Virus record (IMG/VR): IMGVR_UViG_3300031972_000982
Span: 1-21,183 of that record
Direction: 5' to 3' (one strand)
Length of the DNA stretch: 21,183 bases
Source: a virus
Of this stretch, positions 17,254 through 19,151 are shown in pieces; the first letter of the stretch is position 1; every line of letters begins with the position of its first letter. The notes below the pieces were generated by a model. The model made no database searches and was not told where the DNA came from. It saw only the letters and a list, made by a program, of their open reading frames with translations. A program made the translations under genes and the position numbers.

Positions 17254-18033
17254 ATGGAAAGAGTAAAAATAATAGCGTGTGGTCAGAGTAACGAAGTGGG
17301 GTGGGAGTTTGTAACAGAATTTCCAGACACCTATTTACATGAATCACCTAGTGTTAAAGTATTAACAAAGCTTTTTGAATGGGAAAAAGCGTTTTACGGT
17401 GTTAATACAATGGGTGAAGTACCTATATCTAGTCGAAAAAGTGGTAGGTCAGGATATTTAGAAGTATTTGCTAATAAGGTAAAAGAGCTAGGTCATGAAG
17501 TGTTTATGCAAAAAACAGCCGAAGGAGGTTGCGGATGGGTAAATACTAATGGTAATGGTTTTTCTTGGAATATAGACGACACAGATTTAGGTGATTATTC
17601 TTTAGTAAATGAGTTCTATAAACGAAAACAAAACGCACCAATAATTAACGAGGATAAAACCTTATATATTCTTGGGGGTGGTGAACAGGATATTTATGAC
17701 GGGGTAAGCAAAGCGAACTTCATAACCGCTCAGACCGCCTTTATCAATAGGTTGAGAGGTTACGATGCTGTTAATCATCCTATAATTATAATGTTAACTT
17801 CTAACAACACGGTAAGACCAGCAACAGCAGATTTTGCAGGGAAAAGAGAAACTATTAACGAGGCGAAAAAAGAAATAGCAAACGATTTAGATAATGTTTA
17901 TTTGTGTTTTACGGATGGTGATAGATTTTCTTTTCAGCAAGAGGGGACAGTAAGAATACATTATGATTACGATGGATGTGTAGCGGTTGCAGAAGCAATT
18001 AAAGAAGTGGTAGAATTAAACAATTTACTGTAA
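17254..18033 (+). CDS. Tail-associated GQSN-type carbohydrate esterase-like protein
   Basis: The 259-residue product opens with VKIIACGQSNEVG, where Gly10-Gln11-Ser12-Asn13 is block I of the sialate O-acetylesterase / CE6-type SGNH hydrolases and Ser12 the expected nucleophile. ILGGGEQD (about 139-146) matches the position of the family's 'Gly-Glu-x-Asp' block. IHYDYDGCVAVAEAI gives the C-terminal block with His236. In most relatives an Asp lies three residues before this His, but here residue 233 is Val, so the triad would need another acid or work as a dyad. No signal peptide is visible. Located directly after the fibre gene, it is probably a tail enzyme that removes acetyl or other ester groups from surface glycans. 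Substrate is unknown. Confidence 0.66.
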   Translation: MERVKIIACGQSNEVGWEFVTEFPDTYLHESPSVKVLTKLFEWEKAFYGVNTMGEVPISSRKSGRSGYLEVFANKVKELGHEVFMQKTAEGGCGWVNTNGNGFSWNIDDTDLGDYSLVNEFYKRKQNAPIINEDKTLYILGGGEQDIYDGVSKANFITAQTAFINRLRGYDAVNHPIIIMLTSNNTVRPATADFAGKRETINEAKKEIANDLDNVYLCFTDGDRFSFQQEGTVRIHYDYDGCVAVAEAIKEVVELNNLL

Positions 18034-18323
18034 TGGAGGGGTTAGAATGGATAAAATTACATTGGGCAGAAATAGCAGCAGCGTTTGGTATTGGTGGTAG
18101 TTCTGGTTTATTAGGCAAAAAGGCGATGGATTCAAAACAAGATAAGGAAATAAAGCAGCTTTGTAAAAAGGTTGATGTAATAGAAAAAGAGGTTTCAGAA
18201 AACAAGGCGAAACTAGAATTAAACACTACTTTAGACAAACAACTAAGGGAGGACTTAAACCGAGATTTTACACGTATTGACCAAAAGCTTGATAGATTAG
18301 TAGATTTAATGATTAAAAAATGA
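18033..18323 (+). CDS. Holin candidate: N-terminal membrane segment plus coiled coil
   Basis: The 96-residue product has one moderately hydrophobic stretch near residues 11-28 (WAEIAAAFGIGGSSGLLG). It is followed by about 65 residues of charged helix with heptad-like spacing (IEKEVSENKAKLELNTTL, then IDQKLDRLVDLMIKK), suggesting a coiled coil. It overlaps the esterase stop by one base and the spanin gene by four bases, exactly at the start of the lysis cassette. Holin is therefore the best guess by position. The plan is the reverse of XhlA-type proteins, which have the coil first and the membrane helix last. The Gly-rich segment is not a strong membrane helix, so a tail or anchoring role remains possible. 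Confidence 0.45.
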   Translation: MEGLEWIKLHWAEIAAAFGIGGSSGLLGKKAMDSKQDKEIKQLCKKVDVIEKEVSENKAKLELNTTLDKQLREDLNRDFTRIDQKLDRLVDLMIKK

Positions 18324-18742
18324 GGTATTTATTTATATTATTGGTGTTGTGTGGATGCACTACAAAAAGACTAATTAAAAAATTAGAACGTAGAGCAGGG
18401 GTAACAGATACAATTACGGTTGTAATGGTTGACACGGTAGAACGCTTTGTAGTTGATACGATTCACACGGTTAGTTTTCATGATACTGTTACGGTGGTAA
18501 ATAATGAACGGGTTAAGCTTAAATACTTCTACGATACAACACGTCAAGAAATTTGGCATGATGTAGAATGTAAAGAAACGGTAATAAATAAGACCATACC
18601 AGTACCAATTAAAAGAATAAAATACCCTACTTGGTGGGAAAATATAAAAAGTGTTTGGTGGTTAATTTTATTAGTTATAATTTTACTATTCAAAGATAAG
18701 ATAGCAGGCACTATAAAAAATAACTATGAGAAATTTAGATAA
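18320..18742 (+). CDS. Probable unimolecular spanin (outer membrane lipoprotein with inner membrane anchor)
   Basis: The 140-residue product begins with a lipoprotein signal, MRYLFILLVLCGCTT. A lipobox Leu-Cys-Gly-Cys puts the lipidated Cys at position 13. The middle part (about 28-95) is rich in Val/Ile/Thr strands with recurrent Asp-Thr pairs. Near the C-terminus, VWWLILLVIILLF (about 112-124) is one clear membrane helix followed by a basic tail. A lipid anchor at one end and an inner membrane helix at the other, joined by a periplasmic strand region, is the plan of u-spanins such as T1 gp11. These fuse the two membranes after peptidoglycan is cut. It overlaps the holin candidate by four bases and the amidase by 17. 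Confidence 0.74.
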   Translation: MRYLFILLVLCGCTTKRLIKKLERRAGVTDTITVVMVDTVERFVVDTIHTVSFHDTVTVVNNERVKLKYFYDTTRQEIWHDVECKETVINKTIPVPIKRIKYPTWWENIKSVWWLILLVIILLFKDKIAGTIKNNYEKFR

Positions 18743-19151
18743 AATAATATTTCATTGTGCAGATACTAGAATCGACCAAAGTTTTAGTGTTGAGACAGTA
18801 AGAAAATGGCACACAGACCCAAAGCCAAAAGGGCGTGGATGGTCTGACATAGGTTACCATTATTATATCGACTTAAAAGGAACTTTACACAAAGGACGAC
18901 CAATAGAAAAAAAAGGGGCGCACTGCAAAGGATATAATAAAGGTTCAGTAGGTGTTTGTTTTGAAGGTGGTAAAAAAGCAGATGGCTCGAAATGGGATAA
19001 GCCGAAGCCAACACAACTAGAAACAGCGCGTGTATTAATAGGTTATTTAAGAGCAACTTATAATGATAATTTAACTATTCACGGGCATTATGAATTTAGT
19101 TCTAAAAGTTGTCCTAATTTTGATGTTTGTATTATTGAAGATTATACGTAA
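18726..19151 (+). CDS. N-acetylmuramoyl-L-alanine amidase (endolysin), type 2
   Basis: This endolysin cleaves the bond between muramic acid and L-Ala in peptidoglycan. The 141 residues are a single amidase-2 domain like T7 lysozyme, with no cell-wall-binding domain. Visible residues: IIFHCADTR with zinc ligand His10, DIGYHYYI with catalytic Tyr44, then GAHCKGYNKGSVGVCFEGG, and IHGHYEFSSKSCPNFD with His121 and Cys129 as the other zinc ligands and catalytic Lys127. All four functional positions match T7 lysozyme spacing. No signal peptide is visible, so it needs a holin to reach the periplasm, which fits the gene order. The start lies inside the end of the spanin gene. It is the last gene before a terminator region. 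Confidence 0.93.
   Translation: MRNLDKIIFHCADTRIDQSFSVETVRKWHTDPKPKGRGWSDIGYHYYIDLKGTLHKGRPIEKKGAHCKGYNKGSVGVCFEGGKKADGSKWDKPKPTQLETARVLIGYLRATYNDNLTIHGHYEFSSKSCPNFDVCIIEDYT

Follow-up and report, generated by a model that had tools for sequence, protein, structure and literature searches.

Spanins have been catalogued mostly in phages of Proteobacteria. The one-gene kind, the unimolecular spanin (u-spanin), is already known from phage T1, whose gp11 is the prototype, and from flavophages, among which Ingeline and Nekkels already have named u-spanins (PMC8776804). T1 gp11 carries an N-terminal lipobox and a C-terminal membrane helix within 133 amino acids (aa), and its gene adjoins that of the endolysin in a cassette in which holin, endolysin and spanin are consecutive. 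The Rz/Rz1 spanin of phage lambda is made from two genes. In a 2018 survey, none of the 58 catalogued u-spanins has a periplasmic Cys, which is a regularity among these proteins and not a selection criterion, and Bacteroides phage B124-14 and Croceibacter phages P2559S and P2559Y are listed without a spanin (PMC6139136). Spanins have also been mentioned in Crassvirales (PMC10136315).

The window, which is the whole stretch of 21,183 nucleotides of viral DNA analysed here, carries HK97-type head genes. Its assignment to a Bacteroidota phage, proposed in an earlier sequence-only reading, is borne out by tail and terminase genes that match those of Flavobacterium 11b, Cellulophaga, Bacteroides and Salinibacter phages. 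The terminase has its best match in Cellulophaga phage phi39:1, and a large gene downstream of the tape measure, the product of which is probably a tail protein, has no matches outside phages of Salinibacter, Bacteroides, Flavobacterium and Cellulophaga. An Rfam search of the window gave no match. The genes and protein segments under discussion are the following.

18033..18323, + strand: membrane/coiled-coil gene, 96 aa, whose product has a coiled coil and, at its N-terminus, a membrane segment (phrog_462, E 4e-7; Rz-like families, E 0.009-0.09).
18320..18742, + strand: two-anchor protein of 140 aa, probable u-spanin (open reading frame and translation; homologs beside amidases: L272, L279, L291, L298 and two remoter ones, L154 and L157).
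18320..18358, + strand: lipoprotein signal peptide with lipobox L10-C11-G12-C13, in which Cys13 is the expected lipid site (sequence; Cys13 invariant in alignments A3 and A4).
18359..18370, + strand: residues 14-17 (TTKR) after the lipid Cys, with no acidic residue (sequence).
18407..18538, + strand: D-T repeats at residues 30, 38, 46, 55 and 72 of the periplasmic part (sequence; shuffle test).
18500..18574, + strand: conserved core N61-K85, NNERVKLKYFYDTTRQEIWHDVECK (alignments A3 and A4).
18569..18571, + strand: conserved periplasmic Cys84 (invariant in all six members of A4).
18650..18691, + strand: C-terminal membrane helix, about residues 111-124, after a P-V...W-W juxtamembrane motif (hydropathy; modelled helix 105-139).
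18692..18739, + strand: short basic tail, KDKIAGTIKNNYEKFR, expected to be cytoplasmic (sequence; topology deduced from the lipid anchor at the N-terminus).
18726..19151, + strand: endolysin, an N-acetylmuramoyl-L-alanine amidase (Amidase_2, E 1.2e-14; phrog_822, E 1.5e-42).

The amidase gene overlaps the end of the 140-aa gene. Directly before the lysis genes lies an esterase-like gene (17254-18033; weak SASA match, E 0.0066), which possibly encodes a tail-associated carbohydrate esterase. An exonuclease-like gene at 19245-20240 matches phrog_403, a DNA polymerase exonuclease subunit (E 8.8e-60), and its product ends in a Cys-rich, zinc-ribbon-like stretch.

The ATG at 18320 is the start of the 140-aa frame and overlaps the stop codon of the upstream gene. 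Because an in-frame TAA stands at 18314-18316, an upstream start and a longer signal peptide are excluded, and the signal before Cys13 is very short (12 residues, MRYLFILLVLCGC). The sequence-only reading had described an LCGC lipobox and a C-terminal membrane helix in one protein, and sequence and hydropathy place both in this frame, with a best 19-residue Kyte-Doolittle mean of 1.95 at residues 114-132. It is the sole frame of the window that passes our two-anchor test, which was passed by 16 of 20,000 composition-matched full shuffles of the protein. The recurrent Asp-Thr pairs that had been pointed out are likewise unusual: five DT pairs were reached by only 4 of 20,000 shuffles, and the four D[ST][ILV] motifs by 2 of 20,000. 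The description of the middle as strand-rich, which would accord with the mainly beta-strand periplasmic domain of u-spanins, is weakly supported, in that AlphaFold2 placed strands at residues 57-61, 65-72 and 77-84 with a pLDDT of about 45-50, and the models are poor overall (pLDDT 50.1 and 48.7). The model with these strands contains a helix at 105-139 (pLDDT about 57-76) and, at low confidence, one at 2-26. Cys84 had not featured in the sequence-only reading.

The window protein resembles T1 gp11 in its two anchors, its length and its place beside an endolysin gene, but no sequence likeness is apparent. In a tblastn search of a phage collection that includes T1, the window protein gave nothing at E <= 1, and it falls outside the gp11 family as delimited by 40% identity over 40% of the length. 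Whereas the window protein has D-T repeats and Cys84, T1 gp11 has neither a D[ST][ILV] motif nor a Cys between the lipid Cys and the membrane helix.

Single-sequence searches with the window protein found no relative in phages, viral contigs or genome contigs, nothing usable was matched in Pfam, PHROGs, NCBIfam or PDB sequences, and 395 Bacteroidota genomes yielded only two weak partial matches (E 0.002-0.006). Homologs were found by a scan for place and topology around 240 endolysin-centred viral loci. The close group comprises L272 (40% identity, E 3e-27) and L291 (36% identity, E 2e-25) together with the near-copies L279 and L298, and shares the core NNERV...YFYDT.RQEIWH..CK; L154 and L157 are more distant (profile search, E about 2e-7). 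All six lie beside an amidase gene and keep the lipobox, the C-terminal helix and Cys84. The sequence-only reading had named the lack of either anchor in homologs as a ground for rejecting it, and both anchors are present in each of these six. The family is rare in the 395 Bacteroidota genomes, where the six-sequence profile (A4) gave one match (E 3.6e-6). Amidase relatives at L002-L011 proved to belong to other phage kinds without a two-anchor gene and were set aside.

The homologs also bear on whether the N-terminal segment might be a signal anchor, either not cleaved or not lipidated, which would leave a holin- or antiholin-like protein with two inner-membrane helices. The 12-residue signal is shorter than usual, and the low-confidence helix at 2-26 could be read in this way. 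However, the lipobox Cys of the homologs aligns with Cys13 and is invariant among proteins whose longer, standard signals end in VAC or IGC, and the middle part, some 95 residues that are charged and rich in D-T, does not resemble the loop of a holin. We therefore regard a signal anchor as the least probable of the readings discussed here, and a highly improbable one.

A two-component system is the main rival. The sequence-only reading had placed the 140-aa gene between a holin candidate and the amidase; the amidase stands, but the holin label is unsupported, since a family search with the upstream 96-aa protein gave no holin match. Its nearest match is phrog_462, a 'lipoprotein' family that was found in 2 of the 395 Bacteroidota genomes. 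This adjacent gene leaves room for a two-component system in which the 96-aa protein would be an i-spanin-like partner and the 140-aa lipoprotein an o-spanin with an extra membrane helix. The two genes overlap at ATGA, as in many spanin pairs, the 96-aa protein has the weak Rz-like matches listed above, a similar gene lies upstream of the amidase at every homolog locus examined, and two-component spanins typically have a periplasmic Cys. Against this, the lipoprotein of such a pair should be without an inner-membrane helix of its own, and the 140-aa protein, with its C-terminal helix, reaches both membranes by itself. At the homolog loci, moreover, the membrane/coiled-coil gene comes first and the amidase follows; the two-anchor gene comes last, preceded in the close group by a holin-like gene for 66 aa with two helices. 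The amidase therefore stands between the supposed partners. The membrane segment of the 96-aa protein is weak (Kyte-Doolittle 1.03), and its charges (net -1 at the N-terminus, +3 in the stretch after the segment) suggest an N-out/C-in orientation, the reverse of Rz. Two-component action is, on balance, unlikely.

Positional equivalents of the 96-aa gene occur upstream of the amidase at L272, L279, L291, L298, L154, L157, L096 and L109, and these cassettes consistently encode a protein of about 100 aa with a membrane segment and a coiled coil (window 18033-18323; L272:2170-2514; L291:68-391; L154:574-864; L096:2164-2499). The 66-aa protein of the close group has about two membrane helices, and its gene overlaps the two-anchor gene (L272:3004-3204, L279:3004-3204, L291:987-1187, L298:3007-3207); it is the better holin candidate in the homolog cassettes.

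The best reading of the window protein is a unimolecular spanin acting at the final step of host lysis, which we consider probable: both anchors lie in one frame beside an amidase gene, and this arrangement is conserved in the homologs. The points against it are that neither a curated family nor a known u-spanin is matched significantly, that the signal is very short, that beta structure is predicted with low confidence, that the conserved periplasmic Cys has no counterpart in the 58 catalogued u-spanins, that a membrane/coiled-coil gene is adjacent, and that in some phages the two-anchor gene is apart from the annotated endolysin. If the protein acts in this way, signal peptidase II would cut before Cys13, and the Lol pathway would deliver the N-terminus with its lipid to the outer membrane, in whose inner leaflet it would remain, turned towards the periplasm, since Cys13 is not followed by a surface-export signal, while the C-terminal helix would remain in the inner membrane. 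The D-T-repeat linker of about 95 residues, probably rich in beta structure, would then bridge the periplasm within the peptidoglycan mesh. Once holin and amidase had removed the wall, the linkers would cluster, possibly as Cys84-linked dimers, and their collapse would draw the two membranes together, so that fusion would disrupt the outer membrane. Lipidation, membrane sorting, bridging, collapse and fusion are inferred for this protein. The expected end result, both membranes joined after loss of the wall, is that of lambda Rz/Rz1, although one gene would suffice here and the lipoprotein has no periplasmic coiled coil.

The window protein is one of a large set of two-anchor proteins in Bacteroidota phages, most of them unlabelled. 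The scan of the 240 endolysin loci gave 52 distinct usable proteins, chosen by topology and place alone at loci seeded with three Bacteroidota-phage endolysins, the hosts not being checked individually. Topology is not highly specific by itself, since near amidases 73 of 1004 sense frames and 17 of 938 antisense frames pass the test. Among named phages, Bacteroides F2 and Flavobacterium 11b (gp49) have the two-anchor protein next to the endolysin, whereas it lies between holin and endolysin in RAP44 and follows the endolysin in P12002S; in phi19:1 and Harreka the gene is away from the annotated endolysin. A search of flavophage lysis cassettes, suggested by the sequence-only reading, found the plan in Flavobacterium 11b and in Ingeline, where the identification of the gene is ours (Ingeline_2 CDS 32051-32524, after the endolysin). 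This protein, like that of the window, has the plan of a one-gene spanin and a periplasmic Cys, but it lacks D[ST][ILV] and no sequence relationship with the window protein was seen. Two annotations may be noted. Bacteroides phage F2 QNO13185.1 (L012:3405-3845), annotated 'putative Arm DNA-binding domain protein', is actually a two-anchor lipoprotein encoded directly after the amidase. For Polaribacter phage P12002S gp33 (L018:28324-28776), the annotated GTG start at 28366 is truncated, and a start at the upstream ATG (28324) gives back a complete lipoprotein signal.

An envelope lipoprotein that serves a different purpose, such as superinfection exclusion or modification of the host envelope, might also come to lie in a lysis cassette by chance, and the F2 and RAP44 relatives have weak N-terminal matches to the signal sequences of Cor superinfection-exclusion proteins (E 0.03-0.05). 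Yet unrelated Bacteroidota phages repeatedly have two-anchor genes tightly linked to an endolysin, be it an amidase, a GH19 enzyme or a peptidase, and a Cor-like lipoprotein would not be expected to keep a C-terminal membrane helix, so that this explanation is very unlikely.

The sequence after the lipid Cys agrees with a spanin. Lipoproteins of Bacteroidota are exported to the surface when K-(D/E)2 or Q-A-(D/E)2 follows the lipid Cys (PMC5080379). Like the window protein, 50 of the 52 two-anchor proteins have no D or E at positions +2 to +5; a surface-export signal is therefore absent, and the proteins should remain on the side of the periplasm, where a spanin has to be. A periplasmic Cys is present in 28 of the 52, and the P12002S group has a different one that is invariant, so formation of disulfide-linked dimers by the Cys-bearing family is plausible.

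The proposal of the sequence-only reading that the DT-repeat part may define a type peculiar to the lineage gains support from a 13-fold enrichment of the motif in the periplasmic parts of those two-anchor proteins that are linked to endolysins. In a first set, collected partly with a motif-rich profile, D[ST][ILV] occurred 1.8 times per 100 aa in two-anchor proteins and 0.195 times in 460 other frames. In the larger set of 52, the values were 2.55 for the periplasmic parts and 0.19 for 329 other frames of the same loci, and several of the motif-richest of these others are lipobox genes directly after an amidase that the scan had missed (L142, L145, L121). The F2 protein shares with that of the window the D[ST][ILV] repeats and the P-V...W juxtamembrane motif, but direct homology with the F2 group is not claimed, because the HMM score of 4.5 bits lies within the shuffle range (it was equalled by 45 of 1986 shuffles of the full protein and by 211 of 2000 shuffles of its middle). 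When the window family was compared with a wider Bacteroides-type group (A5) profile to profile, the score was 64.4 against a maximum of 46.7 in 100 shuffles of the middle columns, which makes remote homology likely but not certain; the comparison with the P12002S group was weak (51.8%).

An inverse arrangement was also seen beside amidases, at a smaller number of loci: proteins with D[ST][ILV] repeats, an N-terminal membrane helix and a C-terminus like an outer-membrane beta-strand (L098:2914-3408, L163:2932-3429, L281:1854-2348, L284:3080-3562, L339:22998-23621). P2559Y gp23 likewise has an N-terminal helix, a beta-strand-like C-terminal end and a D[ST][ILV] motif. Under a looser classifier, which was fitted by eye, 160 amidase loci comprised 71 with the lipoprotein type only, 7 with the inverse type only, 1 with both and 81 with neither, at least one call of the inverse type (L271) being unlike an outer-membrane end. 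The inverse-anchored proteins are possible spanins, and we treat them as a lead, not a result.

The u-spanin kind itself is not new, as stated at the outset; what is newer is the lineage-wide D[ST][ILV] signature together with the conserved periplasmic Cys. Neither the signature nor u-spanins with such a Cys were found described in the literature covered, which is weak evidence of absence because most subscription papers lay outside its scope. With a signature that combines repeats of D[ST][ILV], a lipid Cys not followed by an acidic residue and a place beside the endolysin, missing spanins of Bacteroidota phages become findable. The conserved periplasmic Cys contradicts the rule of Cys-free u-spanins and allows a direct test of disulfide-linked dimers. 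Somewhat speculatively, Bacteroidota phages may share a one-protein spanin class of their own, with a D[ST][ILV] linker, often a periplasmic Cys that may link homodimers, and two opposite anchorings. If so, the linker would be the working part and either anchoring would serve, and some of the phages now listed without a spanin would possess one.
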